A DNA stretch of 64,000 nucleotides from Planctomycetota bacterium. GTDB taxonomy: Bacteria; Planctomycetota; Planctomycetia; Pirellulales; Thermoguttaceae. The notes under the pieces are model-generated. The model was not told where the DNA came from. It worked only from the letters and a program-made list of their open reading frames with translations, and did no database searches. A program made the translations under genes and the position numbers. Below are positions 5,525-59,466 of this stretch, piece after piece; positions within the stretch are counted from its first letter, which is position 1; each line of letters starts with the position of its first letter. Location of the stretch: positions 1 through 64,000 of the forward strand of contig JAKPGL010000211.1 in NCBI GenBank assembly GCA_029550925.1. The letters run 5' to 3'.

Positions 5525-5599
5525 CCGATCGCTCCTTTGTGTTGTCGCCCATGGAAGCCAGTCGGTGAGATTGGCTTGGTTGCGGGCGGGTTCGTCGCT

Positions 5600-5735
5600 T
5601 CCCGTCTAACAGACAGTGGTACGCAGCTTAGGCTGTCTAGCCTGAGACGCCGTTTGGACTGACGGCGTTCCGGTCCCTGGTATCGTCTTGAAAGCCGGTG
5701 GTACGTAACCGAGTCTGTCCGACGGCGTTTTCCGG
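5600..5735. repeat. Isolated copy of the paired-hairpin repeat
   Basis: Contains GTCTAACAGAC, AGGCTGTCTAGCCT and GCCGTTTGGACTGACGGC, each a small stem-loop, together with ACGCAGCTTAGGCT, the reverse complement of the motif found many times at 17940-18345. The rest of the gap before the oxidoreductase (5525-5999) shows no gene. Confidence 0.6.
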
Positions 5736-5999
5736 CGAAGAGTCCAAGCCCCTGCGCGCCCAACCCCTGCCCTAGCGGGCGAGGCTCGGCCTGGACCGCC
5801 GCCTCCTTCACACACTTCTTTTTATAACATAGTTTGGGGAGATTTCCAGAGGGCTGAGGCAACCGGGAAACCGTCGTGGGGGCTTGCTGAATGCCGGGCC
5901 GGACTTTATGTTGACGGCAAAAGAGATCCTTTTTTCAGCCGATTCTCCTGGGCAGACAGGAGAGGGGTAAATCCTTTGTCGTTTTGGGAGGTATTGGAG

Positions 6000-33265: not shown

Positions 33266-33411
33266 ACCGCACGAAATAGCAGGACCAATATGAAAATATC
33301 TCCCATTCTCCAAACGGGAACCTTCCTGAGCCGACTTGGCCCTCCAAGCGTCGGCCAGGGCAGACAGAACAAATAAGACAGCCTGGAAACACTTTGCCAA
33401 CGGTAACGACG

Positions 33412-34398: not shown

Positions 34399-34970
34399 GT
34401 ATCCGAACCGATCGAGGCAACGTATGGATTTTGGTAACCATTTTGATAGGGCTGGGAGCATACGGGTATTTTATTATCTACCCCCAATATAAGGGGGTTA
34501 AAAAATTAGAGGCAGACCTTCGAGAGCTTCATCAGATGGTCGATCAGGCCGGAGATGTGCTGTCGGCCATTCAAAATACGCAAAAAGAACTCGAAAAAGC
34601 CAATAGCTATGTGCAGACTTGGCAAACCGATGCCCCCAATCTGAACGAATTGGCGCCTTTGTTTGGCCAGATTACCCAGCTTGCCAAACAGGCTGGCCTC
34701 ACCCCTACCCGTTTTAGCCCAGGCAACCGAACACCCTGTGATCGGGTGGCTAAGATACCTTTGAGTATCAATTGCCAGGGGAGTTTCACTCAAATCTATG
34801 ATTTTTTATACAAGTTGGAATCTCTTGCCCAAATTGTCTGGATTGAGCGTTTTACCATTGAAAAAAGCCGGGAAGACTCCCAGCAGCTTCAGTGCGAGAT
34901 AAACTTGGTGATTTTTACCGACAATTCTGGAAATTCCGATCAGACAAAAGATTCCCAAAAGCCGATATAG
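34395..34970 (+). CDS. pilO: Type IV pilus assembly protein PilO-like
   Basis: 191 residues. A membrane helix (V-T-I-L-I-G-L-G-A-Y-G-Y-F-I-I-Y-P) near residues 13-30 is followed by a coiled coil (K-K-L-E-A-D-L-R-E-L-H-Q-M-V) and a ferredoxin-like domain with G-S-F-T-Q-I-Y-D-F-L-Y-K-L-E-S-L, which closely matches PilO (G-x-Y-H-x-L-x-x-F-x-x-x-L-x-x-L). It pairs with PilN across the periplasm. It starts within the end of pilN, indicating translational coupling. Confidence 0.85.
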   Translation: MSIRTDRGNVWILVTILIGLGAYGYFIIYPQYKGVKKLEADLRELHQMVDQAGDVLSAIQNTQKELEKANSYVQTWQTDAPNLNELAPLFGQITQLAKQAGLTPTRFSPGNRTPCDRVAKIPLSINCQGSFTQIYDFLYKLESLAQIVWIERFTIEKSREDSQQLQCEINLVIFTDNSGNSDQTKDSQKPI

Positions 34971-35019
34971 GAGGAGAAGCCGATCCAAAGGCTCGCGCCT
35001 AAAGATCGGCCCGAAAACC

Positions 35020-35775
35020 GTGAACGTACGTCGTTTGTCCCAACAACTCCGCCGTGAGGTGAAAGCCAATCCCGGCAAAGCCGCCCTGTTAGGGGTGTTG
35101 CTGGCGGTGGCCCTTTATTATTGGATTCCCTTGGCAGGCAAGTGGTTAAGCCCAGCCAGTGAGGTGGAGGCAGCCCGGGCGCAACCAGCCGCTTCTGCTG
35201 GCCTGGTCCAGACTGCCGAAAAACCTAGTCCTACTTTATCAGGAGGTCCACCAACTCTCCGAGGAACTTTCAGTCCCTCGGAAAAAAGTTCCGAGGCATT
35301 CCCGGCCTGGGATCAATTGGTCCAGCAGCGGCAATCCGACCCTCGGACCCAACCTGTCCCATGGCCCCCAAACCGACGGAACCCCTTCCAGCCATATGAA
35401 GAAGAAAACCTTTCGGAAAGAAATGACCAGGGAGGAGTTCTTTCGGCAGCCCAATCCGCTCGGAAAGGAAAAACACCGTCAGGGTCTGAATCTCAGGGGC
35501 TCCCGGAACCGCCGGAGTCCTTGGAATTGGAATTGACCAGCATTGTCGTAGGCCCTGACCGCCGGGTCGCCCTGATTAACGGCCGACCCTACCAAGAAGG
35601 AAATACCTTTGTTTTCACTAAAGACGGTCAACAATGGAAGTTTCGGCTGAGCCGGATACTTCCTACCGGCGTCTTCCTGGAGTGGAACGATCGCCGGTAT
35701 GAGGTCCAACTGCCTCGAGCCCCATCGAATGTAGAGATACAAGTCGATTCCTCTGCAAAGAACGAAGGCCCGTAA
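35020..35775 (+). CDS. PilP/GspC-like pilus assembly protein
   Basis: 251 residues from GTG 35020. A membrane helix near residues 21-36 is followed by a long Pro/Ser-rich linker, the landmark R-R-N-P-F-Q-P-Y seen ahead of PilP/GspC domains, and a small beta-barrel (L-T-S-I-V-V-G-P-D-R-R-V-A-L-I-N-G-R-P-Y, then G-V-F-L-E-W-N-D-R-R-Y). PilP is a lipoprotein in proteobacteria, whereas here it has a membrane helix as in GspC. It should connect PilN/O to the secretin encoded next. Confidence 0.75.
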   Translation: MNVRRLSQQLRREVKANPGKAALLGVLLAVALYYWIPLAGKWLSPASEVEAARAQPAASAGLVQTAEKPSPTLSGGPPTLRGTFSPSEKSSEAFPAWDQLVQQRQSDPRTQPVPWPPNRRNPFQPYEEENLSERNDQGGVLSAAQSARKGKTPSGSESQGLPEPPESLELELTSIVVGPDRRVALINGRPYQEGNTFVFTKDGQQWKFRLSRILPTGVFLEWNDRRYEVQLPRAPSNVEIQVDSSAKNEGP

Positions 35776-35798
35776 CATTTCCACCGAGTACAGGGACG

Positions 35799-35871
35799 TG
35801 TCATTCCCGGGAAGCGGCAGGCCTGCATTCCCAATCGGCCAACAGGCGGCTGTTGCGGCGCCAGAATGACA
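35799..35871. repeat. Short palindromic element ending in TGTCATTC / GAATGACA
   Basis: A 73-bp noncoding segment bounded by TGTCATTC (35799-35806) and its inverse GAATGACA (35864-35871), placed inside the pilus operon between the PilP-like and secretin genes. It belongs to the same family as the inner part of the 49334-49514 element. Confidence 0.6.
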
Positions 35872-35943
35872 ACAATTTTCCAGACTCCCCTAGTGGGCAG
35901 GCCGGTTATCGATTTCTTTTCCTCGTAAGGTCATGGAAGACCG

Positions 35944-38673
35944 ATGGAAAACGTTCGGCAAAGGATTTTATTGGGCGGGGTTATAGTAGCGGGGGTAGGG
36001 CTGGCCGTCCTGATCGGCTTGACCAACCCGCCCAGTCCCCGGGAATTGGTATTGGCGGCGGTCCAAGCCGCCGGCCTGCTCCCCGAAAACGGTGGTCTGC
36101 CGCACTCTGCCAAAGGTCTTTCCCCCAGTTCTGGACAATCTTCCGACTCTTTCGAGAGGGGGCAAAAGCTGCCTTCTGAGAAGGCAGTGCCGAAATCGGC
36201 CTCGGCAAGCGAACCCCACGTCGTCCCAATCCCTGGGGGGAACAGTTCTCTCCAGGCGGATCGTCCTTTTTCAACGGCAGGTCGCTCCGACGGCCCTTCC
36301 GCTCAGGCCGCCTCTTCGGAAACCCCTCTGTCGCTTTCGGATCCCACCCGGAGAAAACCCCCTTCCGGCGAGGTGCTGGCGACTCCGGCCCCGGCGTATG
36401 GCCTGCAAGCGTCGGAAGGTTCTTCGGCGTCTAACACCACGACCCAAAGCGGCGGTTCCGGCGCCTCCCCAACGTCCCGGCAGCCTTCTGCCGCAAACGC
36501 CCCGGCTTCCCCATCCCAGGAAGAAGTCCCCAAAGAACTCCTGGAACTTTGGAAACTCCTCCACAGAGGCCGACAACCAGCCGACGCTTCCACCGATTTG
36601 CCGCCTAAAACCTCTTCGCAGCAGACGCCGGAAGCTCCATCCCCGGCGAACCCTTCTTTAACCCCCGGAGGGAATGAGGCCGAAGATTCTGGGCGGTCGG
36701 ACGGGGCTGCCTCCGGCGCCGGCAGTCCTCCGAAAGTCCATTCGAGGGTTATTCCTCTTGCAGGTCCAGCCCAGCGAGTCGGTTCGGAAACTTCGTCGTC
36801 TTCCGCCCATGGGAACCAAGCTGGTTCGGGGACTGCTCAAGTTCAGCGCGAAGGCGATGGTCGGCTGATCATCAACATCCGTAATGAGGACATCCGCAAA
36901 GTGCTCGAAATGCTCAGTGAACAGGGCAACCTGAACATCCTGGCCACCAGCAGTGTGCAGGGGAAAGTGTCGGCCACGCTCACCGGAGTCGATTTAGAGA
37001 GCGCTTTGCAGGCGATTTTGCGATCGTCCGGGTTTGTAGCGAAAAGGGAAGGAAAGTTCATCTATGTCGGCGCTCCGGAGGATTTCCTTCGCATGGAGCA
37101 GGCCGCCGATCGGATCGGGACCCGCGTGTATCGGCCCAATTATGTGAAGGCGGCGGACCTGAAGGACCTGATCCAGCCGCTGCTGACGGAAAAAGTCGGC
37201 CTGGTGAGCGTCAGCGCCCCGGCCGAAATCGGCATCGCCTCGGACGACGATAAAGTGGGCGGCAATAACTTCGCCGGCGGCGAAGCGATCCTGGTGCGCG
37301 ATTACGAAACCGTTCTGACGCAAATCGACCAGGTCGTAGCGGAAATTGATGTTCGGCCCATGCAGGTCCACATCCAGGCCATGATTCTGAGCGTCCGGCT
37401 GGACGATACGGACAAGTTCGGCGTGGATTTCAAGAAGCTGATCGAGAATAGTAATTTCACTGTCGGCTGGGGTATGCCGGTCGATAGCCTTTCAAAAGTT
37501 ACATTTACTAACGGGGGGTTAAAATTCGGCTTTATCGACGGCGATGTCGGAGTGTTTCTGGAAGCGTTGGAAAGCGTCGCGGACGCCAGCGTCATTGCCG
37601 CTCCCCGGCTTATGGTGCTCAATAAACACCGGGCCGACATCTTGATCGGACGCCAAGAAGGCTACGTCAACACGACGCAGACCGAAACCGCCACCACGCA
37701 ATCCGTACAATTTTTGGACATCGGCACCCAGTTGCGCATCCGTCCGTTCATCTCGCCGGACGGACTGATCCGCATGGAAATTCATCCGGAGCTTTCCGAC
37801 GGGGCGGTAACCGTCCAGGGCAACTTCACCCTCCCGCAAAAAGACGTTACCAAGGTAACTACCAATATCATGGTCCGAGACGGCTGCACCGTGGTTATCG
37901 GGGGGCTCATGCAGGAACAATCCACGGCCAGCGTCACTCAGATTCCTTTCTTCGGCAATTTGCCGGTGGTTGGGACGCTGTTCCGACGGACCACCGAAGA
38001 ACTCAAACGGGTGGAGATCATTGTTCTGGTTACGCCCCACATTGTGTGGGAACCGGAAGCCTACGCCGAAGGGACGTTAAAGCAATGCGAGTTCCAACGG
38101 CGGCAGGATGTCTATGCGGAGAAGATGAGCCCCTTGGGCAAGCGATCGGTGGCCCGTCGGTACTTGCGGATGGCCCAAGAGGCCTGGAGTCGCCAGGACA
38201 TGGAGCGGGCGTTACGTTTTGCGGAAATGGCGGTCCATTTCGACCCGCTCAGCCGCGAAGCCTTGGAGTTTCGCGCCCAGGTCTGGCAGAGGGTTTCTGA
38301 CGCCCCGTTGCCGGAAGAGGCGATTCGGGCGCCCAACGGACGCAGTTGGACCGCGCCGTTAGACGGGCCTACCGTGGCCCCTTGGATTTTCCAAGAGATG
38401 GAAAACTCTCCTTCCTCTTCTTCAGGACCGGAAAGTCCTTTGCCCGAAGTTCCTCCGCCGCCGGAAAACGGTGGGGAAAAGCCCTCTTGGCCTATCCGCC
38501 CACCTCGCCCTCTTCCTCCCGCACCCAAGGGAAAACCTTCTGAGAGTTCGATGGATAAGGATTCGGCCAATCCCAGCGGTCCGGGCCTTAATCCTGTGCG
38601 AGAGGAAGGACCACCGCGCAAAGAAATCCGTCGGCCTTCGCTGTTTCAGACCACGCCGTTTCGCACCCCATAA
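35944..38673 (+). CDS. Secretin (PilQ/GspD family) with TPR-like C-terminal tail
   Basis: 909 residues. An N-terminal signal or membrane helix (about 8-27) is followed by about 270 Pro/Ser-rich disordered residues, an STN-type domain (I-N-I-R-N-E-D-I-R-K-V-L-E-M-L near 308-322), a secretin N domain with long insert, and the secretin barrel (about 475-700) ending V-I-G-G-L-M-Q-E-Q and P-x-x-G-x-L-F-R, the hallmark of the family, then V-L-V-T-P-H-I-V. It would form the outer membrane pore for the pilus or substrate. After the pore come about 45 residues resembling one TPR (Y-L-R-M-A-Q-E-A-W-S-R-Q-D-M-E-R-A-L-R) and a Pro-rich end, both unusual. Confidence 0.9.
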   Translation: MENVRQRILLGGVIVAGVGLAVLIGLTNPPSPRELVLAAVQAAGLLPENGGLPHSAKGLSPSSGQSSDSFERGQKLPSEKAVPKSASASEPHVVPIPGGNSSLQADRPFSTAGRSDGPSAQAASSETPLSLSDPTRRKPPSGEVLATPAPAYGLQASEGSSASNTTTQSGGSGASPTSRQPSAANAPASPSQEEVPKELLELWKLLHRGRQPADASTDLPPKTSSQQTPEAPSPANPSLTPGGNEAEDSGRSDGAASGAGSPPKVHSRVIPLAGPAQRVGSETSSSSAHGNQAGSGTAQVQREGDGRLIINIRNEDIRKVLEMLSEQGNLNILATSSVQGKVSATLTGVDLESALQAILRSSGFVAKREGKFIYVGAPEDFLRMEQAADRIGTRVYRPNYVKAADLKDLIQPLLTEKVGLVSVSAPAEIGIASDDDKVGGNNFAGGEAILVRDYETVLTQIDQVVAEIDVRPMQVHIQAMILSVRLDDTDKFGVDFKKLIENSNFTVGWGMPVDSLSKVTFTNGGLKFGFIDGDVGVFLEALESVADASVIAAPRLMVLNKHRADILIGRQEGYVNTTQTETATTQSVQFLDIGTQLRIRPFISPDGLIRMEIHPELSDGAVTVQGNFTLPQKDVTKVTTNIMVRDGCTVVIGGLMQEQSTASVTQIPFFGNLPVVGTLFRRTTEELKRVEIIVLVTPHIVWEPEAYAEGTLKQCEFQRRQDVYAEKMSPLGKRSVARRYLRMAQEAWSRQDMERALRFAEMAVHFDPLSREALEFRAQVWQRVSDAPLPEEAIRAPNGRSWTAPLDGPTVAPWIFQEMENSPSSSSGPESPLPEVPPPPENGGEKPSWPIRPPRPLPPAPKGKPSESSMDKDSANPSGPGLNPVREEGPPRKEIRRPSLFQTTPFRTP

Positions 38674-42272: not shown

Positions 42273-44036
42273 ATGAACACCATATCCCCTGCGGCAACCT
42301 CGCTGCGACTGGGAGAGCTTCTGGTGGCCAAAGGCTACCTGAAGCCGGAGGACCTCCAGCAGGCCCTGGAGCGTCAGCGCCAGGAGAATCGGCGTCGGTT
42401 GCTGGGGGAAATCCTGATCGAAGCGGAGCTTTGCACCGAAGAGCAAATCCAGGAATGCCTGGCGGTGGAATGCGGGGTTCCTTTTGCGCGATTGGACGCT
42501 CGGCTCTACGACCCCAGAGTCGTGGATGTACTGCCTCGGGAGTATATCGAACAGAACCTGGTTTTGCCGCTTTTTGTGGTCCGCGGGATGCTCACGGTCG
42601 CCGTGAGCGAGCCGAGCAATCTGTTTCTGATCGACGAAATCCGGAGTCTTACCAATCTCCAGGTGCAGATCGTCGCCGCCACCCCGCGGGACATCCGGCG
42701 GATGATCACCAATCTGCCGAACTCCAAAGTGTTCGTCATCGACGACATTATCGAAGACAGCCAGACGGCCGACGTTACGCTGATCGAAGAGGCCATCGAA
42801 GACATCGGCGACATCGAGGAAGTGGCCGGCCAATCGCCGGTCATCCGACTGGTGAACTACCTGATCTATAGTGCGGTCAAAGAAGGCGCCAGCGACATCC
42901 ACATCGAACCGGCCGAACGCTGCCTGCGGGTGCGATTCCGCATCGACGGCCGACTGCACAAATTCTTGGAAGTCCCTTTGCGCCTGCTTCCGGCGGTTAC
43001 AAGCCGAATCAAAATTATGGCCTCTCTGGACATCAGTGAACGTCGCCTTCCCCAGGACGGCCGGGTGCATGTGATGCTGGAAAGCCGAAAGATCGACCTG
43101 CGCGTCAGCACCTTCCCCACCGCCCGAGGCGAAAAGACCGTCATCCGGGTGTTGGACACCCGAAATGTGTCGCTGAACCTGGAAGAACTCGGTTTTGCGG
43201 AGGACATCCTGGCCGAGTTCCAACGCCATATCCACGCCCCCAACGGAATCATCCTGGTAACCGGGCCGACCGGCAGCGGTAAATCCACCACGCTATATGG
43301 AGCCATCAACGCCATCGCCGCGATGGAAAATAACGTCTGCACCGTGGAAGACCCGATCGAGTACCACCTGCCGCTCATCAATCAATCCCAGGTGCAGGAG
43401 AAGATCGGACTGACGTTTTCCAAGGCGTTGCGCACTCTTTTGCGTCAGGACCCGGACATCATCATGGTGGGCGAAATACGGGACGAAGAGACGGCCCGAA
43501 CGGCCATTCAAGCCGCCCTGACCGGCCATCTGGTCCTGAGCACCCTGCACACCAACGACGCCTGCTCGGCCGTTACCCGATTGGTCAATATGGGCATCGA
43601 GCCGTATCTGATTGCGGCGGCCCTGAACATGGTGTTGGCCCAGCGGTTGGTGCGGCGGATTTGCCCGAAGTGCAAAACCACCTATGATCCCCCTCGCAAT
43701 GTGCGGCGGGCCTTGGAACGGATGGGCTTTGACATTCCGACGTTTTATCGGGGCGTCGGCTGTCGGAGCTGTCGGAACACCGGGTATCGGGGGCGGATCG
43801 GCGTCCATGAACTTCTGTCGATTACCGAACCGATGCGGGACCTGATCATCGCCGATCCGAGCATTACCGCCCTGCGGCAAATGGCCCTGCAAAGCGGCAT
43901 GGTCACCCTCGCCCACGACGGCTTCCGCAAAGTCCGCGAAGGAATCACGACGATCGAAGAGGTGCTTTCCATTGTGGGCGATCTGGGAGGCAGCGCCCCG
44001 GAAACAGCGTCGGAAAAAAGATCATCGTCTGCATAA
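42273..44036 (+). CDS. GspE/PilB-type assembly ATPase
   Basis: 587 residues, the hexameric motor that drives pseudopilus or pilus assembly. N-terminal MshEN/GspE-N domain (L-R-L-G-E-L-L-V-A-K-G-Y-L, about 10-150); the ATPase core has Walker A G-P-T-G-S-G-K-S-T-T near residue 330, the Asp box, Walker B I-I-M-V-G-E-I-R-D-E-E-T-A near 396 and the His box H-L-V-L-S-T-L-H-T-N-D. A zinc-binding tetracysteine is present (C-P-K-C near 463 and C-R-S-C near 495), as in GspE and PilB. It is followed at 21 bp by the GspF/PilC gene. Confidence 0.95.
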   Translation: MNTISPAATSLRLGELLVAKGYLKPEDLQQALERQRQENRRRLLGEILIEAELCTEEQIQECLAVECGVPFARLDARLYDPRVVDVLPREYIEQNLVLPLFVVRGMLTVAVSEPSNLFLIDEIRSLTNLQVQIVAATPRDIRRMITNLPNSKVFVIDDIIEDSQTADVTLIEEAIEDIGDIEEVAGQSPVIRLVNYLIYSAVKEGASDIHIEPAERCLRVRFRIDGRLHKFLEVPLRLLPAVTSRIKIMASLDISERRLPQDGRVHVMLESRKIDLRVSTFPTARGEKTVIRVLDTRNVSLNLEELGFAEDILAEFQRHIHAPNGIILVTGPTGSGKSTTLYGAINAIAAMENNVCTVEDPIEYHLPLINQSQVQEKIGLTFSKALRTLLRQDPDIIMVGEIRDEETARTAIQAALTGHLVLSTLHTNDACSAVTRLVNMGIEPYLIAAALNMVLAQRLVRRICPKCKTTYDPPRNVRRALERMGFDIPTFYRGVGCRSCRNTGYRGRIGVHELLSITEPMRDLIIADPSITALRQMALQSGMVTLAHDGFRKVREGITTIEEVLSIVGDLGGSAPETASEKRSSSA

Positions 44037-44057
44037 CCTGTTTTCCCTCAGGAAACC

Positions 44058-45254
44058 ATGATGACGTTTACCTATCGGGTGCGCGATCCGCTGGGAAAAG
44101 AGCACGAAGGTCAGTTGGAGGCCCCCACGCTGGAGGACGCCGCCCAACAACTGCGCCGGGACGGTTTTCAAGTTCTGGAACTCCATGAGGCCGATTCCTC
44201 CCCGGGGACTCTCTGGCCTCGCCGCGTATCCAGACAAGAATTGATCTACTTCACCACCCAATTGGCCCTGATGGTCGATACCGGCATTCCGTTGGCGACC
44301 GCGATCGGCGGCATCCTCGAACAGGAGACAAACCCCACGTTGCGGAAAGTCCTTAGCCAACTGAAGCGAGACATCGAGGCCGGGGAAGATTTTTCCACTG
44401 CTCTGGCGAAACATCCCAAACTGTTCGACCGGACCTATGTCGCCCTGGTCAAGGCCAGCGAGGCCAGCGGCGCCCTCGGATCCATGTTGGACCGGATCGC
44501 CAGCTATTTGCGCAAGGAGTTGGAAACCCGCGGCAAAGTGCGGGCGGCGATGGCCTATCCGATGGTCATGCTCGTCTTGGCCGTCGGCGTAACCATCTTC
44601 CTGCTCACCTACATCTTGCCAAAGTTCATCCCGCTTTTCGCATCCCGGGGCGTGGAACTGCCCAAAATGACCCGCATGGTCATGGGGGTTTCCGATGTGT
44701 TATTGCATTACTGGTATTTTTGGCTGAGTGGGGCGGTCCTTCTGACGGTGGGGTTCTGTTGGGGCCGACGCACTCCCATGGGCCGACAAATGCTCGATTG
44801 GGCCAAAATCCGAACGCCCATCCTGGGGCCGATGTTCCGCAAAGTGGCCATCAGCCGAAGCCTCCGCACCCTCGGCACCATGTTGGCCAGCGGTGTGCCG
44901 ATGTTGGACTCGTTGCGACTGTCGGCCGAAGTGGCCGGCAACTACCACTACGAACAACTCTGGAACCGCGTGCTGGACCAGGTAACCGGCGGAAAACGGA
45001 TCTGCGACGTGTTGGTTGCCAGTCCTCTGTTTCCACGGGTCCTGGTCCAGATGATCGCCGCCGGCGAAGAGACCGGCCAATTGGATATGATCCTCCAGCG
45101 CGTCAGCAACTACTACGACCAGGAAGTCGAAATGGCCATCAAAACCGCCACCAGCATGATCGAACCGCTGATGATCAGCTTGATGGGCGTGGTGGTAGGC
45201 GGTATCGGCATGGCCCTGCTTTTGCCGATCTTCTCCCTGAGCCGACATCCCTAG
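44058..45254 (+). CDS. GspF/PilC-type inner membrane platform protein
   Basis: 398 residues with two homologous GspF domains. Each begins with a conserved helix (Y-F-T-T-Q-L-A-L-M-V-D-T-G-I-P-L and S-R-S-L-R-T-L-G-T-M-L-A-S-G-V-P-M-L), and three membrane helices are seen near 165-195, 215-240 and 370-395. The N-terminal 60 residues (F-T-Y-R-V-R-D-P-L-G-K) match the cytoplasmic domain that meets the ATPase. It closes the pilus/secretion locus; the next genes are on the other strand or unrelated. Confidence 0.93.
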   Translation: MMTFTYRVRDPLGKEHEGQLEAPTLEDAAQQLRRDGFQVLELHEADSSPGTLWPRRVSRQELIYFTTQLALMVDTGIPLATAIGGILEQETNPTLRKVLSQLKRDIEAGEDFSTALAKHPKLFDRTYVALVKASEASGALGSMLDRIASYLRKELETRGKVRAAMAYPMVMLVLAVGVTIFLLTYILPKFIPLFASRGVELPKMTRMVMGVSDVLLHYWYFWLSGAVLLTVGFCWGRRTPMGRQMLDWAKIRTPILGPMFRKVAISRSLRTLGTMLASGVPMLDSLRLSAEVAGNYHYEQLWNRVLDQVTGGKRICDVLVASPLFPRVLVQMIAAGEETGQLDMILQRVSNYYDQEVEMAIKTATSMIEPLMISLMGVVVGGIGMALLLPIFSLSRHP

Positions 45255-49940: not shown

Positions 49941-49970
49941 TTGACAATTCTTGAAGAAGATGGGTAAATT
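49941..49970 (+). promoter_or_regulatory. Promoter of the second PilM operon
   Basis: TTGACA (49941-49946, perfect) and TAAATT (49965-49970, four of six) at 18 bp spacing. This leaves about 145 nucleotides of leader before the start at 50122. Confidence 0.5.
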
Positions 49971-50121: not shown

Positions 50122-52485
50122 ATGGCGAAGTCAGATGCTGTTTGGGCGTTGGATATTGGACAATGTTCGTTGAAGGCCCTGCGCTGTACGCCGGATGAAA
50201 GGTCGGATCGGCTGATTGCCGATGCGTTTGATTACATTGAATATCCAAAAATTCTCAGCCAGCCCGGGGCGGAACCGGCCGAATTGATCGCCGAAGCCTT
50301 ACAACAGTTTCTCTCCCGCAATACGCTGAAAGGGGATATGGTTGCGTTGGGGGTGCCGGGGCAGACGGGGCTTGCACGATTCATCAAATTGCCGCCGGTC
50401 GAGAGCAAGAAGATACCGGCCATTGTCTATTACGAGGCGAAGCAGCAGATTCCGTTCGATCTGGCGGATGTGGTCTGGGACTACCAGCGGATGGGCGGCG
50501 GAAGCGAAGAGGAGGGGTTCACGCTGGAGACGGAGATCGGGCTTTTTGCGATGAAGCGGGAACAGGTCTTCCGAATCCTGGAGCCGCTCACGGAGGTAGG
50601 CATCGAAGTCGATCTGGTGCAACTGGCGCCATTGGCGCTATATAACTTTATGGTATTCGACCAGATGCCCGATCTGGGGTCGCCGGACGAATATGATCCA
50701 GAGAATCCGCCGCCTTCGGTGGTGGTGCTTTCGATGGGCACCGACGCTACGGACTTGATTGTAACGAACGGGTACCGGGTCTGGCAACGAAGCATCCCGA
50801 TCGGCGGCAACCACTTTACCAAGGCGCTTACCAAAGAATTGCGGCTGACCTTTGCCAAGGCCGAACATCTCAAACGCAATGTCTCCGCCGCCGAAGACCC
50901 GAAGGCCCTTTTCCAGGCGATGCGGCCGGTGTTTCACGATTTTCTGACCGAGGTGCAACGGTCGCTGACCTTTTTCAGCAACCTGAACCGCAAGGCGCAG
51001 ATTGCTCGGGTGGTGGCGTTGGGCAATGCGTTCAAATTGCCGGGCCTGCGGAAATATCTTTCCCAAGGGTTGGGCTACGAGGTCCAGCGGATCGAGGCGT
51101 TCCGCGGATTGGCGGGGCCTCAGGTGCTCCATGCGCCGGCGTTTAAGGAGAACATGGAAAGCTTTGGGGTCTGCTACGGGTTGGCGGTCCAGGCGTTGCA
51201 GAAGGGATTGGTCAGCACGAATCTATTGCCCAAGGAGATCATCCAGGATCGCTTGATTCGGGAGAAGAAGCCTTGGGCGACGGCGACGGCGGCTGTATTG
51301 ATGTTGGCAAGCACCTTGAGCTTTGTCAGTTGGACGCGTGCGTTGGGCACGGTGAGAGAAATCGACTGGCAGGAGGCCCACCGAAGGGCCCGAGAAGTCA
51401 AACAGTTTGCCGATAAATGGCAGTCAGAAATCAACGGCCTGCTATCGCAATTCCAATCGACGGACCAAATCGGCCAGAATTTGGTGGGCAATGTGGAGCG
51501 GCGGATCGTCTGGACGGAGCTGCTGTATGCGATCAACCAATGTCTGCCCCAAGATATGTCCATCCAATCTGGCCAACCCCGCCCCGCCGACCCCGCCGAC
51601 CGGCATGAAATCTATATTGAAAACATCGAAGCGCAACGGGTGGAGCGATTGGAGGATTGGTTTGCGGCGGTTCGGCCCTGGTATCTGCCGCCCGGCGGCG
51701 CCGTTTTACCGGGGGGAGTGGCGGCGCCTGCGGGAGGCGCCCCCGGGGCGGCCGGGGCGGCCGGAATGCCTGGCCCGGGCGCTGTTGTCCCCGGGGCAGC
51801 AGTCCCCAGCGCTGCTGGGGCCACGATGCCCTCTCCTGCAACCCCACAGGCCGCCGCCCCGGGAGCCGTTTCCCCTAGCCCGACCGACGCCGCCTCTGCC
51901 CAAGGGGCTGGCGAGACGCCCGCACCAGAGGGGCCGAGCGGGCCGGGCTGGATAGTCCGACTAACCGGATATCATTTCCACAATTACGAGACGCCGGAGA
52001 AAGCGAAAGGCCGGCCTATGGGCCGAGTCTATCTCTATCAAACCCTTATCGAAAATCTTCGGAACAAAACCATCGAACTACCGGCCTTTAGCGCCCACGA
52101 AGGCCAGACACCGGGCCAAAAAGAAAAAGTAACCATGAAAGAGCTAGGCGTCGAGTACCCGGTGCTGGTGGAACCCAAACCCTATCAAAAGGTCGAGGTG
52201 CTCGATCCGAAAGCGGCGTTGGAGGAGATGCTCAACCCGAAGGCAAGCGTTCCCTCGGCAAAACCCGAGGAGTCGCCTTCCCCCGAAGCAGGCGCCAATC
52301 CCGCCGGGAAAGAATCCTCGGTCAAAAAGAAGACCATCGTTTTGTGGAAATATCCGTTTACGGTGGAATTTGTTTGGCGTCCTACGCCTCCCAGTAAACG
52401 GGCGGAGGAGAAGAAAAAAGCCGAACAAGCCCGAACCTCTCAGGAACAACCCACCGCAGCGCCGCCGGCGGCAAAACCCATGTAA
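50122..52485 (+). CDS. PilM-PilN fusion-like protein, first gene of a second assembly operon
   Basis: 787 residues. Residues 1-370 form an actin-like PilM domain: W-A-L-D-I-G-Q-C-S-L-K-A-L, V-V-L-S-M-G-T-D-A-T-D-L-I-V, N-H-F-T-K-A-L-T-K-E-L and V-V-A-L-G-N-A-F-K-L-P-G. A membrane helix (about 386-405) is followed by a coiled coil, then a PilN-like region (E-L-L-Y-A-I-N-Q-C-L-P-Q-D-M) interrupted by an 80-residue Pro/Ala/Gly run and continuing with V-R-L-T-G-Y-H-F-H-N-Y, the PilN-type ferredoxin-like strand. The C-terminus is Lys/Pro-rich. PilM and PilN are separate in ordinary pilus loci, including the one at 32207 here. The start is clear from M-A-K-S-D-A-V-W; GGGGAAGGA lies upstream. Confidence 0.8.
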   Translation: MAKSDAVWALDIGQCSLKALRCTPDERSDRLIADAFDYIEYPKILSQPGAEPAELIAEALQQFLSRNTLKGDMVALGVPGQTGLARFIKLPPVESKKIPAIVYYEAKQQIPFDLADVVWDYQRMGGGSEEEGFTLETEIGLFAMKREQVFRILEPLTEVGIEVDLVQLAPLALYNFMVFDQMPDLGSPDEYDPENPPPSVVVLSMGTDATDLIVTNGYRVWQRSIPIGGNHFTKALTKELRLTFAKAEHLKRNVSAAEDPKALFQAMRPVFHDFLTEVQRSLTFFSNLNRKAQIARVVALGNAFKLPGLRKYLSQGLGYEVQRIEAFRGLAGPQVLHAPAFKENMESFGVCYGLAVQALQKGLVSTNLLPKEIIQDRLIREKKPWATATAAVLMLASTLSFVSWTRALGTVREIDWQEAHRRAREVKQFADKWQSEINGLLSQFQSTDQIGQNLVGNVERRIVWTELLYAINQCLPQDMSIQSGQPRPADPADRHEIYIENIEAQRVERLEDWFAAVRPWYLPPGGAVLPGGVAAPAGGAPGAAGAAGMPGPGAVVPGAAVPSAAGATMPSPATPQAAAPGAVSPSPTDAASAQGAGETPAPEGPSGPGWIVRLTGYHFHNYETPEKAKGRPMGRVYLYQTLIENLRNKTIELPAFSAHEGQTPGQKEKVTMKELGVEYPVLVEPKPYQKVEVLDPKAALEEMLNPKASVPSAKPEESPSPEAGANPAGKESSVKKKTIVLWKYPFTVEFVWRPTPPSKRAEEKKKAEQARTSQEQPTAAPPAAKPM

Positions 52486-52545
52486 CGACGGCCTGAGGTA
52501 GAAGTTCCTTTTACCTCTTTGTTTTTGGCAGAGGCAGATAGAGCC

Positions 52546-54495
52546 ATGGATTATGTAAGAAAAATACTCGCCTTGTTGCGGAAGTATCATTTTTGGGGTT
52601 TAGCGGTGCTGGCGGTGGCGCTGTTAGGGGGGGTTTGGACGGCGGCCAGCGCGAGATTGTCGGACACTTTTGAGAAACGTAAATCGGAGGTGAAACGGGA
52701 TTTTGACGACATGCATCAAGTTGCCGGTCTGCCCGATCCGGTAAATGAACTTGTCTATAACGCCATTCGCGCCGTTCATGAACAGCTCCAGAAAAGTGTG
52801 ATGCGGGGCTGGCGGTATTTGTATGAGCAGCAGAAGGAAAACAATCCTCTCCCCAGCGTGTTGGACGAACGATTCAAGGAGGAATGGGATAAACGAAAAC
52901 CGAACGAAGAACTTCCCGCAGAAATGCTGGAACACTATTGGAACTTCATCCAGCGGTATTTCCCGGAGCTTTTGAAAAATGCGGATATTCGACGGCCCAA
53001 AAACCCGGCACGATTGGCCGGCGGTGGTTTGGGGCCGGGCGGCGTCGGCCTGATGGAAGGCGCTGGGGGGGCCCCGACCGGCGCAGAACAGGTGGAGTAT
53101 GAAGGCAAGGTAGTATGGGACGACGCCAACTACAAACAATTGGTGGCGCGGTTTCAATGGAACCAGCAACCGACCACCCTGCAAGTCCGCCTGGCCCAGG
53201 AAGACCTGTGGGTATATAAAACTTTGCTCGGCATCATTAAAGAACTCAACAAAGGCGCTACCAGCCATTACAATGCGGTGGTCAAGCGGATATTCGCCTT
53301 GGACATTGGTCCGTCTGCAACGAAGGCGTTTTACGAAGCTCGGGATGCCCTAGGACTGCGAGGTTTGACGGGGGCGGTTGCGGCGGGAGGAACAGGTGCT
53401 CCGGGTGAAATGCCTCCTGGTGCGATGCCGGGAGGGGAACCCGGCCTCGGCCCAGGCGCTCCGCCGCCTGGCGGGGTTCCAGGAGCTTTAGGTCCTGGGA
53501 TGCCGCCTGGGATGCCGGAAGGGCCGCCGATGGGGATGCAGGGGCCGGGGATGCCTCCCGGCATGTTAGAAGGCCCTGGAATGCCTCCCGGTCTGCCGAG
53601 CGCCGGCGCACTCGACGCTCTTTACCAATATCGGTATGTGGATCAAAACGAGCAGCCTGTGCCGGTGGAAAACGGTGTACCGAAACATCCGTTTGCCGAG
53701 TTCAAAATGATGCCCATCCGGATGCGTTTGCTGATAGATCAGCGGAAGATTCCGGAATTGTTGGTGTTGTGTGCGAACTCGAAGATGCCGATTGAAATTC
53801 GCCAAGTGCGTTTGAATCCTGGTCGGGCGGCCAAGGTCAATTATGCCGCCGCCCGGACCGCCTCGGCCAGGCCGATGTCGGGGATGGGACCAGGGATGGA
53901 AGGCATGGGGCCGATGGCCCCCGGCCTAGAAACTATGGGTCCCCAACCCACCCCGGGAGGAATTGGAGAAGGACCTGGTATGGGAGGACCTCTGGGCGGA
54001 GAAGCCGCCTACCAAGGGCCGTATGATATGGTCGTGGAAGTCTTAGGGATCATTTATATCTATGAACCGCCAGACGAGACGAAGTTAGGCTCTGGAGCAG
54101 CCACAAGCGGCGAAACGGCGCCGGCCGCCAAGCCGCCGGAAGGGGAAACGCCGCCTCCGGTGAGTCCAGAAACCCCGACTAGCCCGGCAAGTCCCTCCCC
54201 CGCAGCGCCGTCTGTTGTTCCGCCGGCCGCCGCCCCGGCAGTTCCCAAAGGAGTGCAACCCACGGCGCCAGGCGGGACTCCGACTGTACCGCCCGGCAAA
54301 ACGCCGCCGGCACCTGCAAGCGGCGGGGCTACTGCGCCGGATGCACCCCCGGACATGCCCGCTCCGCCTGCGGCAGGCCCCGAAGCAACGCCGCCCGCTG
54401 CTAAGCCAGATGCAAAATCCCCAGCAGCCGCCTCGGAAGCCGACCTGCCGCCGGTCGTCCCAACTCCCCCCACTAGTCCGGAACCCAAACCGTAA
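52546..54495 (+). CDS. Single-pass membrane protein with Met-Pro-Gly repeats (possible PilO analogue)
   Basis: 649 residues from ATG 52546. One membrane helix (residues 11-29, F-W-G-L-A-V-L-A-V-A-L-L-G-G-V-W) leaves most of the protein outside the cytoplasm. Residues 30-250 are helical and charged (Y-V-H-E-Q-L-Q-K-S, W-N-F-I-Q-R-Y-F-P-E-L-L). Residues about 280-350 and 445-485 are repeats of M-P-P-G-M, P-G-M-E-G-M and similar. Between them F-K-M-M-P-I-R-M-R-L-L-I-D-Q-R-K-I-P-E-L-L resembles the central helix-strand of PilO-like domains. The last 130 residues are Pro/Ala-rich. The family is not recognised; its place after a PilM-PilN gene suggests a PilO-like partner. Confidence 0.65.
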   Translation: MDYVRKILALLRKYHFWGLAVLAVALLGGVWTAASARLSDTFEKRKSEVKRDFDDMHQVAGLPDPVNELVYNAIRAVHEQLQKSVMRGWRYLYEQQKENNPLPSVLDERFKEEWDKRKPNEELPAEMLEHYWNFIQRYFPELLKNADIRRPKNPARLAGGGLGPGGVGLMEGAGGAPTGAEQVEYEGKVVWDDANYKQLVARFQWNQQPTTLQVRLAQEDLWVYKTLLGIIKELNKGATSHYNAVVKRIFALDIGPSATKAFYEARDALGLRGLTGAVAAGGTGAPGEMPPGAMPGGEPGLGPGAPPPGGVPGALGPGMPPGMPEGPPMGMQGPGMPPGMLEGPGMPPGLPSAGALDALYQYRYVDQNEQPVPVENGVPKHPFAEFKMMPIRMRLLIDQRKIPELLVLCANSKMPIEIRQVRLNPGRAAKVNYAAARTASARPMSGMGPGMEGMGPMAPGLETMGPQPTPGGIGEGPGMGGPLGGEAAYQGPYDMVVEVLGIIYIYEPPDETKLGSGAATSGETAPAAKPPEGETPPPVSPETPTSPASPSPAAPSVVPPAAAPAVPKGVQPTAPGGTPTVPPGKTPPAPASGGATAPDAPPDMPAPPAAGPEATPPAAKPDAKSPAAASEADLPPVVPTPPTSPEPKP

Positions 54496-54531
54496 TCTTT
54501 ATCCGAGAATGGAATGCGAGGAGGCCAAGCC

Positions 54532-56793
54532 ATGAAATTGAAATTGGATCCCCAAAAAGCCAAAGAGTTTTTGCTGAGCCATATAGAGAAGTTTGTGTTC
54601 GGCTTAGTGGTGTTAGGTTTCCTTTGGTTTGCTCAATATACTTTTTTCCATCGAGAAGGGATTGCCGACACGCCCAGCAAATTGCTGGAGATCACGAATG
54701 ACGCCGAGAAGCGGATCAAAAAGTCGCCCGAAAAACTCCCCGTGGAGGCCAAGGACTATGAAGCGACCATCAAAAAGACAATGGATAGCATCGACCCGAA
54801 GGATTACGCCCATCGGGTGCTGTGGTGTCCGCCGGTGTTTGATCCGCCGCCGAAACGGGGAGAACCTCGGCTGCTGACCGTCCGGGATTTACGGGGATCG
54901 GCTGGATGTGCGAAGGTCTATGTGGCGACGCAGACGCCTACCGGGCCTACCGCTTCGCCGGACGAAACGATGCTGATGGAAGGGGCGCCTCCCACAGGCC
55001 CCATCTCCGGCATGGGAAGAGAGACCGCTAAGGGCGAACGTTGGGTGGTGTTGACCGGGCTGGTGCCTTATAAAGAACAGATCGAGGCCTATATCGAGGC
55101 GTTCCGGGCCGCTTCCCGACAGTCCGCGCTGACCGGTCTCCAACCGGGCGCCGCCCCTGGCGGTATCCCCGGCGCTATCGCCGCCCCGGCGCCAGGATTG
55201 ATGGAAGGTCCAGTTCCCGGCATGATGGGGCCTGCGGGCAGCCCCACTAGCGCCGGCGCTGATATGCCTGTCTATGTCCGCTATCACGTGCAGCGGGTGG
55301 AAGTGAATAGCCCCGGCGACGCCATTGAGGAGGCGGATTGGGAAGCCGGCTCGATCAACGTCCGCAAAGCCAAAGAGGAAGCCACCCGACGCTGGGGGAG
55401 CATCGCCACAGGACCGATCGGCGGTACCCAGCAAACGGACATCGGCATCCATCCCCTATTTTGGGATCAGGTTTTGGATTTCCCGTTGCCTCGGTTTGCC
55501 GACGGTCGGCAGTTGGACGATTCGTTCGCCCATCCGCCGGAAATTCCTCTTTTGAAAAAGTGGACGTACCAGATCGGCCCGGATGGCCGACCGATCATCC
55601 CTACCACGACCACTTCGACCGAAACCGCCGCTTCAGAAAAAATCGCTAAGCCGAAACCTGAGGTGAAAGACATGCCGGATATGCCGGGAGCGTTCCCCGG
55701 CATGGGACCTCGCGGTCCAGGCGAAATGCCGCCCGGCTTTGTACCCGGCGCCATGCCGCCAGGAATGGAAGGCATGGGACCGATGGGGCCTATGTCCGGC
55801 GGCGCACCCGGCTCGTTCTCCGGAACCATGCGACTACCGGATTATAAACTCTTTCGGTTCATCGACCGCACGGTGGAACCGGGCAAACGCTATCGGTATC
55901 GGGTGCGATTGTGGCTGGTGAATCCGAATTATAAACAGAATCCTCGGTTCCTGGAACGTCCGGAATTGGGGAAAGAACCGGATGTAATGACTCCCTGGTC
56001 GGAGCCGAGCAATGTCGTGGAGACGCCGCGGGATGATCGGCTTCTGGTCTTGGGCATGAAGTGGATAGGCGGCGCCCCGGAGGGTAAAGTGGCCCTGCTC
56101 AAATGGATCCCCGACGATGGCGAATTAGCGACTAAGGAAGAAGAAAAAGTCGTCCGCGGCCAAGTGCTCAATTTGCCCAAACAAAAATGGCCGGAAGAAG
56201 ACACCCGGAAAACTTCTCCCGCATCGAAACCCTCGACCAAACAAGCGCCCGGAATGGGCCCCCTGACGGAAGATTATGAATTGCTGATGGGCGCCGCCAG
56301 CCAAAAATCGAAAAAAACCTCCTCCAAAGAAAAACCCTCGGCGACGCCGTCGGGAATCCTGGGACCGGGCTTTGGTCCTCAGTCGAAAGAGCCTTTGGAG
56401 ATCGACTATCAGACCGACTGTCTCGTGGTAGATCTTCGCGGCGGGTATCGGATCGACCTGCGAGGGCAGGGACGCGCGTCGCATTCCGACCCGGCGTATA
56501 ATGCGCCCGGCGAAATGCTGCTCCTGCACCCGGAAGGATATCTCTATGTTCAGTCCGAACTGGAGGACGCCGAGCAGTACGATAAAATCCTCCAGATGCG
56601 GGCGCCCAAGTACGACGAACGGTTCGGCCCTGGTTTTATGGGAATGCCGCCCGGCATGTTGGAGGGCGCTGTGCCGCCGCCTGGAGGCGTCCCCGGCGAA
56701 CTGATGCCGCCGGGCGAAAAAGGCCGACCTAAACCTTCGTCCAAAACCACTCCCAAGACGCCCAAGGGCGCCGCCAATCCCCCTAGAGGCTAA
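54532..56793 (+). CDS. Single-pass membrane protein with Met-Pro-Gly repeats, third gene of the second operon
   Basis: 753 residues from ATG 54532, seven bases after GAGGAGG. One membrane helix (residues 15-34, F-V-F-G-L-V-V-L-G-F-L-W-F), then an extracytoplasmic region. V-L-T-G-L-V-P-Y-K-E-Q-I-E-A-Y and F-R-F-I-D-R-T-V-E-P-G-K-R-Y-R-Y-R-V-R-L appear to be strands of beta-sandwich (fibronectin-like) domains, separated by M-P-P-G-M-type linkers. The end is basic and Pro-rich. No catalytic motif was seen and the family is not recognised. It shares both topology and composition with the preceding gene, so the two probably form one complex. Confidence 0.65.
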   Translation: MKLKLDPQKAKEFLLSHIEKFVFGLVVLGFLWFAQYTFFHREGIADTPSKLLEITNDAEKRIKKSPEKLPVEAKDYEATIKKTMDSIDPKDYAHRVLWCPPVFDPPPKRGEPRLLTVRDLRGSAGCAKVYVATQTPTGPTASPDETMLMEGAPPTGPISGMGRETAKGERWVVLTGLVPYKEQIEAYIEAFRAASRQSALTGLQPGAAPGGIPGAIAAPAPGLMEGPVPGMMGPAGSPTSAGADMPVYVRYHVQRVEVNSPGDAIEEADWEAGSINVRKAKEEATRRWGSIATGPIGGTQQTDIGIHPLFWDQVLDFPLPRFADGRQLDDSFAHPPEIPLLKKWTYQIGPDGRPIIPTTTTSTETAASEKIAKPKPEVKDMPDMPGAFPGMGPRGPGEMPPGFVPGAMPPGMEGMGPMGPMSGGAPGSFSGTMRLPDYKLFRFIDRTVEPGKRYRYRVRLWLVNPNYKQNPRFLERPELGKEPDVMTPWSEPSNVVETPRDDRLLVLGMKWIGGAPEGKVALLKWIPDDGELATKEEEKVVRGQVLNLPKQKWPEEDTRKTSPASKPSTKQAPGMGPLTEDYELLMGAASQKSKKTSSKEKPSATPSGILGPGFGPQSKEPLEIDYQTDCLVVDLRGGYRIDLRGQGRASHSDPAYNAPGEMLLLHPEGYLYVQSELEDAEQYDKILQMRAPKYDERFGPGFMGMPPGMLEGAVPPPGGVPGELMPPGEKGRPKPSSKTTPKTPKGAANPPRG

Positions 56794-56874: not shown

Positions 56875-59466
56875 TTACCGGTTTGCCGTCGGCGGTTCGA
56901 TCCGCCATGCTTCGACCGATTTGGGCGTAGAAACGATCAAGAGGGGTTGGCCTTGGAGCGTCCCGACGGCCAGGCCGCTAAGCGGCGCCCCATAATAGAA
57001 CATCTCCAGCCGTTTGCCGTCCGGCCCGACGAAGTGGATGGAGCCGTCCGCCCCGGGAAATATCCAACACGCCGGTCCCCCGGACGACATTCGGCCTACA
57101 AAGACCGGTTCGATCGGATGTTCCGGCATTCCCTTGGGCAGTGCATACGTCCAAAGTTCTTTGCCCGTCAGATCAAAGCCGACCATAAGCACTTGACCGA
57201 GAGCCGGGATGTTCATGCCGCACCACTCCGGCTGGCCGTCGCCGGTCAAATCGGCGGCAAAGGCGGCGTACAGAGGCCGATTGGGCAGGGCAAGCTCGGC
57301 CTGGCGCTGGCCCTCGAAGTCCAACGCCAGTAAACTCCCTCGGTCATGGGCGCACCAGAGCAGTCGCTTGCCTTGAGTGTCCGCTGGTCCCACGGCAAGC
57401 CGGGCTACGTTGGCGATCTGCCGGAACGCCCATCGCCGCTCTTTCTTGGCCAGGTCCACTTGGTGCACTCCCACCACGTCCCAGTAGCTGACATACAGTT
57501 CCAACTGGCCGTCGGCGTTCAGATCGGCAAAGGCGGCGTCATAGATTCCGGCGTGCGGATGCTCCAAGGCGTCGGGCGGAAAACGGAACAGCTCCTTGAA
57601 CTGATCGTCGAACACATGGACCCGTTGCTGCTGGACGGCCAGGGCGGCAAACAGACGTTTTTGATCCGCCCCGACGCCGGTGATCAGAAAAGTAGCCACC
57701 TCCTGCGGCTGAAGTCCCAGGTCATAGGTATTAAGGAGTTTGCCTTCCGGCGAAAGTTCCAGGACCTTCTTGAAACGATCGACCACCAAGATGCGGGGCG
57801 TCCCATCCGGTCGATCCACCAGCAGGAGATTGCCCGGCTCGGCGCCCTCCTGCCATTTCCACAAGGGGCTGAGCCGGAAGGCGCTCGGTTCCGTTTTCGG
57901 ATGGATTTCTGCCCGGGGGATTTCTTGCTGCTGGGTTTCTGCGCCTTCGGGGGGTTTGCCTTCCATGGCCCGCTGCAAGGCGGCTTCGTACTGCCGGACC
58001 TTCTCCTGAAATTGGGCCTGGGCGGCCTGATAGATATCTTCGCCCGCCAGGAGTTTTTCGATTTTGGCCGGCAGTTCGGTTTCCAAGTTGGCCTGGAAAC
58101 CGAGCTGATAATCCTGGACTCGCCCATCTTTCCCGATGAGAAAACTGGCCGGGATCGCCTGGACCATAAACAGCCGACCCCCCTGGCCTTCCAGGTCCCG
58201 CACCATGGGAAGGGTTACTTTCAGTTCGGCGAAAATCTGTTCCAATTCTTTATTTTCCATGTTCGGCGGGGCTACGCTGACGGCCAAGAACGCCACGTTG
58301 GGATTGTCCTTGTATTTTTGGAAGACCTTCTCCACCAGAGGCAACATCTGACGGCACGGCTGGCACTGCGGCCCCCAAAGGTCGAGATAGACCACCTTGC
58401 CGGCCAAGTCTTTGGCCGTAATTGGCTTGCCGGAAAGATCGGTAAACTTAAATTCCGGCGCGGGCTTGTTGAGCAATTGGGCCGGATCGGGAAGCGACCG
58501 CGGGTCCGGCGGAATGAAATACTTGACCACCTTGGCGTCCGCCGGCGTTTCAAACGTAAAGGCCTTCGGGTCTTCCGGCGGCGAAAACGTCGCGGAGTGG
58601 AACTCGGCCGCCAAGGAAATCTGCTCTGGCTTGGCGCCTGCGCCCAATTGATCGGCCAACAGGTCGGTGGGATATTCGATCCGTCGGAGCAGGTACGTTT
58701 TTTTATCCACCCAGAACACTTGTTGTCCTTCCGGCCGACGGATGGCCACCCGATAGCATTCCTGGTTGTTGATCGTACCCGGCTCGATCAGTTCTGGTTC
58801 CTGCGCCCGTTGGAGGATTTGTTGGAGGGCGTCTTTTTCCAGCAGGAGCAACGGTTGCGGCGGGCCGCCGACAATACCCCCGGTCAAAACCTCCGCCAGG
58901 ATGGAATCGCTCAGGATGTTTTTCAAACTCAGAGCGGCGGGGGCCGGCAATTCTAACACTTGGCCTGGCAAATCGTCGATGGCCGCCCGCAGACGCTGCC
59001 CGTCGCAGACCAGCTTCACTTGATAGACCTCCATACGAAGGCGGTTCGGCCGGACGAAACTGACCGCAAAATCTACTTTGTTATCCAAAACCTCTTCTCC
59101 CCTTCGGACATAAAATCGCAGTTCGCCGGCGTCCGCATATCGGGGGGCGGATTGGTAGGCGGCGGCCATGGCCTCCAGCACGCCTCGGCCTGTGGTGGGC
59201 GGCTTTTCCGGCAGCCGAACGCCCTGCGGCACTCCCTCCGGCCCAGCCGACGTCGCCGCCGAACCTTCGCCGCCGTCCGGCCCTCCGCCTTGGCCGCCGC
59301 ACCCTAGGATGGCCAACCCCCCGATCCCCATCAGGGCCAACCACCACCAGAATTTTTTCGTCCGAGGTTTTTCCCAGAGACGCCCCGCTCCAGAAAAGCT
59401 CCTTCTTTTTGACGCCACGTCGTGGTTTTGCTCTCTCCAGCCGTAGAGACTGTTTGGCAGACGCAT
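56875..59466 (-). CDS. Lipoprotein with LolA-like, TlpA-thioredoxin and beta-propeller domains
   Basis: 863 residues; ATG 59466 follows AAAGGAG. After a basic leader, W-W-L-A-L-M-G-I-G-G-L-A-I-L-G-C-G-G gives a lipobox near residue 56. Residues 90-310 resemble LolA/DUF2092 outer-membrane-lipoprotein-sorting domains (Y-A-D-A-G-E-L-R-F-Y-V and F-V-R-P-N-R-L-R-M-E). Residues about 330-480 are a TlpA-like thioredoxin with the active site W-G-P-Q-C-Q-P-C and cis-Pro in Q-A-I-P-A-S. Residues 530-863 have repeats such as D-L-N-A-D-G-Q-L-E-L and D-L-T-G-D-G-Q-P-E-W, FG-GAP-like calcium loops in a propeller. It would sit on the envelope and perform disulfide chemistry; the combined role is unknown. 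Confidence 0.75.
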   Translation of the reverse strand: MRLPNSLYGWREQNHDVASKRRSFSGAGRLWEKPRTKKFWWWLALMGIGGLAILGCGGQGGGPDGGEGSAATSAGPEGVPQGVRLPEKPPTTGRGVLEAMAAAYQSAPRYADAGELRFYVRRGEEVLDNKVDFAVSFVRPNRLRMEVYQVKLVCDGQRLRAAIDDLPGQVLELPAPAALSLKNILSDSILAEVLTGGIVGGPPQPLLLLEKDALQQILQRAQEPELIEPGTINNQECYRVAIRRPEGQQVFWVDKKTYLLRRIEYPTDLLADQLGAGAKPEQISLAAEFHSATFSPPEDPKAFTFETPADAKVVKYFIPPDPRSLPDPAQLLNKPAPEFKFTDLSGKPITAKDLAGKVVYLDLWGPQCQPCRQMLPLVEKVFQKYKDNPNVAFLAVSVAPPNMENKELEQIFAELKVTLPMVRDLEGQGGRLFMVQAIPASFLIGKDGRVQDYQLGFQANLETELPAKIEKLLAGEDIYQAAQAQFQEKVRQYEAALQRAMEGKPPEGAETQQQEIPRAEIHPKTEPSAFRLSPLWKWQEGAEPGNLLLVDRPDGTPRILVVDRFKKVLELSPEGKLLNTYDLGLQPQEVATFLITGVGADQKRLFAALAVQQQRVHVFDDQFKELFRFPPDALEHPHAGIYDAAFADLNADGQLELYVSYWDVVGVHQVDLAKKERRWAFRQIANVARLAVGPADTQGKRLLWCAHDRGSLLALDFEGQRQAELALPNRPLYAAFAADLTGDGQPEWCGMNIPALGQVLMVGFDLTGKELWTYALPKGMPEHPIEPVFVGRMSSGGPACWIFPGADGSIHFVGPDGKRLEMFYYGAPLSGLAVGTLQGQPLLIVSTPKSVEAWRIEPPTANR

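Follow-up and report, generated by a model that had tools for sequence, protein, structure and literature searches.

What is a block of pilus-type genes for when it carries an inner-membrane platform and nothing that would drive a fiber or let it out of the cell? Three genes in a planctomycete genome, here called M, B, and C, raise this question. We analyzed a stretch of 64,000 nucleotides (the window) from the 72,987-bp contig that holds the trio. The original prediction had read the trio as a stripped-down second copy of a complete pilus set nearby, composed of a PilM-PilN fusion and two Met-Pro-Gly-rich partners, and at the same time as a candidate for an undescribed machine.

The three genes are co-directional, as had been proposed, and form one block in the order M-B-C with intergenic gaps of 60 and 36 bases (Table 1). 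The start of B was placed at the ATG at 52546 in preference to an upstream TTG at 52519, with homologs beginning at the matching ATG, and C starts at the ATG at 54532. A promoter consensus scan of both strands returned four sites where 0.6 were expected, one of them upstream of the trio. Hydropathy plots gave a single membrane helix per protein, with peaks at residue 386 of M, residue 16 of B, and residue 21 of C, and the linkers are rich in proline, glycine, and methionine (B contains 15% P, 12% G, and 4% M). Hydropathy and composition bear out the picture of two large partners, each with one N-terminal helix and a long Met-Pro-Gly-rich extracytoplasmic part. When the window was compared with one genome of the same genus, dN/dS for the PilM domain was about 0.05, and whole-gene values were 0.13 to 0.2. 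All three genes are clearly under purifying selection, which is strongest on the PilM domain and weakest on the linkers.

Table 1. Positions of the trio and its upstream promoter-like site in the window, with examples of motor gene clusters in relatives
Feature	Position	Strand	Length	Description
M	50122..52485	+	787 aa	PilM-type actin-like domain, PilN-type motif, membrane helix, periplasmic part
B	52546..54495	+	649 aa	Membrane helix at the N terminus; long helices; periplasmic domain, ferredoxin-like, carrying a Gly/Pro/Met-rich insert; predicted PilO/Amuc_1100 fold
C	54532..56793	+	753 aa	N-terminal membrane helix; periplasmic fibronectin-III-like beta domain with inserted alpha/beta part; Gly/Pro/Met-rich linkers
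Promoter-like site TTGACA-18-TAAATT	49941..49970	+		Consensus scan; upstream of trio; no evidence of function
PilB-PilT-PilB cluster examples	L238, L239, L241, L244			Relatives G029, G030, G023, G019

Genes for a secretin, an ATPase, a platform protein, and a pilin were all absent from the trio locus and its flanks, and clustering of open reading frames from the window and 20 neighborhoods of relatives revealed no conserved gene of pilin size next to the trio. The trio does not lie at a contig end; because its contig continues well past the locus, the separation of the trio from a secretin is genuine rather than an assembly artifact. Convergent with the trio, at 56875 to 59466 on the minus strand, is a gene for an 863-aa fusion of a DUF2092-like part, a thioredoxin/AhpC part, and FG-GAP-like repeats. 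Upstream of the trio, many neighborhoods of relatives contain a gene of about 1,000 aa resembling GH38/57 glycoside hydrolases, accompanied in many of them by genes for a cytidylate kinase and an acyltransferase.

The PilM identity of M is certain, with residues 10 to 357 matching PF11104 (PilM) at 95.7 bits. The actin-like domain (residues 1 to 360) is followed by the motif TNLLPKE (366 to 372), a membrane helix (about 385 to 405), and a periplasmic part with an Ala/Pro/Gly linker. The top NCBIfam family for M was NF045709 (Amuc_1101), which matched at 203 bits over residues 1 to 478, i.e., past the PilM domain, against an equivalog cutoff of 650, whereas TIGR01175 (pilM) scored 125 bits. The other PilM in the window showed the reverse ranking, with 135.6 bits for pilM and 74 for Amuc_1101. 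In a PilM tree, the M proteins formed a clade apart from classical PilM with support of 100/100, and the tree broadly tracked taxonomy, a pattern consistent with vertical inheritance.

The PilN half of the proposed fusion required a closer reading. An NLLP motif stands 17 to 20 residues ahead of the membrane helix in 35 of 39 M homologs across the phylum. In addition, the alignment of the M profile with the PilM-PilN crystal construct 5eou runs through its PilN peptide (RINLLP). The classical PilN of the window opens alike (QIDFLPEEY, then a helix). Since the motif and helix are conserved and the alignment extends through the 5eou peptide, these comparisons support M as a PilM covalently fused to a PilN-type anchor, for which we infer a periplasmic PilN domain. 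The Pfam PilN domain was not detected in M or in the 37 M C-terminal homologs scanned, whose few Pfam matches were scattered and at chance level, and a profile comparison of the M C-terminal part with the window PilN gave no match. The predicted fusion therefore stands for the PilM domain, the NLLP motif, and the helix, and its periplasmic PilN domain is putative. A third PilM-containing family, of 740 to 914 aa, occurs in many relatives (e.g., G039:C10:1655658, G038:C414:7593, G007:C748:11703, and G033:C139:9587); its homology covers roughly the first 295 PilM positions and no more.

AlphaFold modeled B with a mean pLDDT of 76.5 and 259 residues above 90. The solved structures that matched this model best were those of Amuc_1100 (6lad, Z of 10.2 over 176 residues; 6laf, 9.6; 6kny, 9.3), and these matches spanned nearly the whole solved chains. 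PilO structures came next (3jc8, 7.5; 2rjz, 7.4; 5uvr, 5.9), and the best unrelated chain reached 5.8. Foldseek also ranked Amuc_1100 first, at a weak E value of 0.18. On the modeled fold, B is a PilO/Amuc_1100-like partner that is nearest Amuc_1100, and the PilO fold that the original prediction proposed to look for in predicted structures is present. Profile comparisons of B with Amuc_1100 and with the window PilO gave no match, and no pilus protein was among the matches when B, C, and the compact B described below were searched as sequence profiles against the PDB. B and C had no Pfam or NCBIfam matches, and 59 B and 58 C homologs produced scattered Pfam matches at chance level.

In the model of C (pLDDT, 73.4), a long alpha/beta insert follows the first strand of a fibronectin-III-like domain. 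A fold search returned fibronectin-III and antibody domains at Z of 7.9 or less, an unspecific result with many unrelated matches, and no GspC-type domain was seen among them. Pfam PilP matched none of the 58 C homologs, and C begins with a membrane helix. It is gene position that argues for C as the putative counterpart of Amuc_1099.

The distribution of the trio does not fit a reduced copy of the neighboring set. M, B, and C were contiguous and in that order in all 20 neighborhoods from relatives of the same taxonomic order and the same held for nearly every named GTDB locus of sufficient length. The M type was found in about 36 of 40 genomes and classical PilM in about half; in G037 (100% complete) and G028 (99%), M was the sole PilM match. 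In a sample of 196 genomes from the phylum, all same-class genomes listed had C (14 besides the genome under study), and about 32 genomes from other classes had weaker matches; the trio was visible in the neighborhoods that we checked. Nine of nine loci from other classes carried a compact version in which M, B, C, and a secretin of about 590, 300, 265, and 730 aa are contiguous. Homology between long and compact B extends along the length of the proteins (hhalign, 97.9%; E = 4e-13), and long and compact C match over the first 60 or so residues, i.e., the membrane anchor. Judged from these homologs, the trio is close to universal within the order, reaches widely through Planctomycetota, and is apparently vertically inherited.

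The neighborhoods of relatives also supplied an outer-membrane partner. A giant secretin of about 950 to 1,560 aa is the next gene after the trio in 20 of the 46 named GTDB loci that had sufficient sequence, 84 to 762 bp downstream on the same strand, and in 6 of the 20 neighborhoods from the same order. The genome under study encodes its orthologue (1,299 aa) on contig C78 (71286 to 75182), unlinked to the trio, and this protein is 47 to 55% identical over more than 1,000 residues to the giant secretins of relatives. Of the 40 genomes searched, 36 (including the one under study) had a strong orthologue. The C78 protein matched a compact-quartet secretin of another class at an E value of 3e-26, versus 2e-7 over 76 residues for the 909-aa secretin that neighbors the trio. 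Two exceptions were seen: G026 (99% complete) has the giant secretin without the trio or a PilM, and G019 has the trio without a strong giant-secretin orthologue. By gene order and homology, then, the trio platform has a dedicated secretin family. The predicted lack of a secretin, ATPase, platform protein, and pilin is true of the locus itself but not of the system as regards the secretin, and the trio homologs often adjoin a secretin and do not lie inside a complete pilus operon.

Nearly every relative also has a second giant secretin-like family (G000:C158:13-1050 and paralogues; frames of about 1,330 to 1,420 aa where complete), which shares about 30% identity with the quartet secretin across residues 447 to 823. 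Near the C78 secretin are genes for BNR/sialidase-like, NPCBM-domain, and polysaccharide-deacetylase-like proteins (L027:11619-16000, minus strand, and 3973-6195, plus strand), which may be there by chance.

Motor genes were found outside the trio locus. The classical pilus/T2SS set that had been reported nearby as complete lies 5 to 18 kb from the trio (32207 to 38673 and 42273 to 45254, with PilM at 32207, PilN at 33394, PilO at 34395, secretin at 35944, PilB at 42273, and PilC at 44058). It shares the PilM and secretin superfamilies with the trio system and differs in that its PilM belongs to a separate clade, its PilN and PilO have no sequence match to the M C-terminal part and B, and its secretin is only distantly similar to the giant secretin. 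The genome has eight T2SSE matches, all outside the trio locus; PilB and PilC lie in the window and PilT on contig C31, and a PilB-PilT-PilB triplet was not seen in this genome. Among 10 relatives chosen mostly because they lack classical PilM, all 10 carried PilB/PilT-type ATPases and 9 had the PilB-PilT-PilB triplet. Where it could be clearly read, the triplet was followed by PilC and genes with an N-methyl pilin motif, in a cluster without PilM, PilN, PilO, or secretin. Because this cluster lacks those parts and the quartet of trio and secretin lacks a motor, the two are complementary and could work together.

Co-occurrence with PilC was uninformative as a test of motor dependence, since PilC occurs almost everywhere (in 44 of 45 genomes that have compact B and in 12 of 14 that lack it). 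In another planctomycete, a T2SSF match lies within a 13,576-aa open frame (G117:C1:488153-488524). The genome under study has 65 matches to DUF1559 (PF07596), and 14 control genomes have none. DUF1559 proteins, which we take to be pilin-like, are candidate fiber subunits or substrates of planctomycete pilus-like machines.

We consider it likely that the trio supplies the inner-membrane components of a trans-envelope complex that resembles a type IV pilus and has its motor and fiber genes elsewhere, and the earlier idea of a trans-envelope platform with no motor in its locus is supported. On assembly, M would couple a cytoplasmic motor to the membrane, the M anchor and B would form a periplasmic alignment ring, and C would probably span toward the giant secretin in the outer membrane. 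A fiber made by borrowed PilB, PilC, and PilT from pilins would pass through that secretin and might catch or import large glycans. The motor would be drawn from the window PilB and PilC and the PilT on C31 in this genome and from the PilB-PilT-PilB-PilC-pilin cluster in relatives.

Other arrangements of the same parts can be imagined. The trio could be a platform for protein export, with M, B, C, and the giant secretin in the places of GspL, GspM, GspC, and GspD and with a borrowed GspE and pseudopilins. The one-chain architecture of M is GspL-like, 7 of 22 M homologs weakly match T2SSL (best E, 7e-4), and there is a second GspE in the genome, on C169 (617 bits as GspE versus 581 as PilB). 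However, PilM_2 matches all 22 of those homologs (best E, 2e-43), the curated top match of M is Amuc_1101, a pilus-complex family, and the matches of C are FnIII-like and include no GspC-type domain. Genomes that have only the quartet carry PilB together with PilT, the retraction ATPase typical of pili. We therefore regard a secretion platform as unlikely.

The remaining two explanations appear more improbable still. In one, the trio would form a substitute inner-membrane ring that docks with the neighboring classical secretin and motor and has no outer-membrane partner of its own. This would suit a trio locus that lacks a secretin and has classical PilMNO, a secretin, and PilB/C 5 to 18 kb away; we disfavor it and give it scarcely any weight, since the trio is accompanied by a giant secretin family of its own, which this genome also encodes, and since about half of the trio-bearing relatives are missing classical PilM. 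In the other, the actin-like M would belong to a cytoskeletal or envelope-spacing scaffold that holds the wall and outer membrane to the cytoplasmic membrane, with no fiber and no transport. Press-stud-like links between the outer and cytoplasmic membranes have been described (Boedeker 2017, PMC5394234), M weakly matches FtsA, and no pilin is linked, but a secretin partner implies a gated channel and a PilN motif with a PilO fold is typical of pilus or secretion machines, so we think such a scaffold very improbable.

As for a role of the pilus-like complex, dextran in planctomycetes binds fibers emerging from crateriform structures that link both membranes, and the same study leaves the polymer uptake system and the composition of these structures unassigned (Boedeker 2017, PMC5394234). 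In Akkermansia, the corresponding locus has been linked to adhesion to mucin or fucoidan and to the uptake of these polymers (PMC13174399). By analogy, the trio and giant secretin are candidates for macromolecule capture or polymer uptake through the envelope. More tentatively, they might build the crateriform structures themselves, the hundred or so press-stud-like membrane links per cell that emit dextran-binding fibers, and so provide an entry route for polysaccharides and proteins to the periplasm with an ancestry shared with the Akkermansia mucin-foraging machine; we see this as possible but doubtful. If true, it would be the long-sought route for whole polysaccharides and proteins into the planctomycete periplasm. 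A near-universal trans-envelope operon with its own giant secretin offers four named genes to delete or tag, and gene deletion is available in Planctopirus limnophila (PMC5394234). Experiments on any member of the planctomycete locus were not found in the open literature, and a search of open-access papers yielded no account of a planctomycete system corresponding to Amuc_1098-1102.

Among named systems, type IVa pili (PilM-PilN-PilO-PilP-PilQ) share with the trio system PilM, the PilN cytoplasmic motif, the PilO fold, and a secretin in the genome. They differ in that PilM and PilN of the trio are one chain, no PilP was recognized among the C homologs, the motor and pilins are unlinked, and C is a large FnIII-containing single-helix protein. 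Type II secretion is approached by the GspL-like chain of M, with its actin-like domain, membrane helix, and periplasmic part, and by the PilO/GspM-like B, but the best families of M are PilM and Amuc_1101, not GspL, and C has no GspC-type domain.

The closest likeness is to the type IV pilus-like Amuc_1098-1102 (MUL2) of Akkermansia muciniphila. The gene order Amuc_1101, 1100, 1099, 1098, as described for Akkermansia (PMC5332112; PMC13174399), runs PilM-Amuc_1100-Amuc_1099-secretin and equals the M-B-C-secretin order of planctomycete relatives. M belongs nearest the Amuc_1101 family and is extended past the PilM domain like it, B shares the Amuc_1100 fold, and the Amuc_1101 and Amuc_1098 models (608 and 805 positions) are near the compact M and secretin in length. 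The planctomycete proteins are larger, as in B with its Gly/Pro/Met inserts and the secretin on C78; the trio lacks a linked Amuc_1102-type pilin, its secretin is unlinked in this genome, M scores under the equivalog cutoff, and B has no sequence-level match. The machine is of a known kind and not the new one first supposed, and its enlarged, split planctomycete form, giant secretin, and phylum-wide reach appear undescribed. Amuc_1100 is widely studied in Akkermansia probiotic research; the comparison would tie it to a machine apparently common to the PVC group and explain its fold as that of the PilO position. Because the B fold is nearest Amuc_1100, M is nearest Amuc_1101, and the compact M-B-C-secretin set is contiguous in nine of nine loci, we read the trio, by protein family, modeled fold, and gene order, as the planctomycete counterpart of the Amuc_1098-1101 apparatus, enlarged with Pro/Gly/Met-rich linkers.
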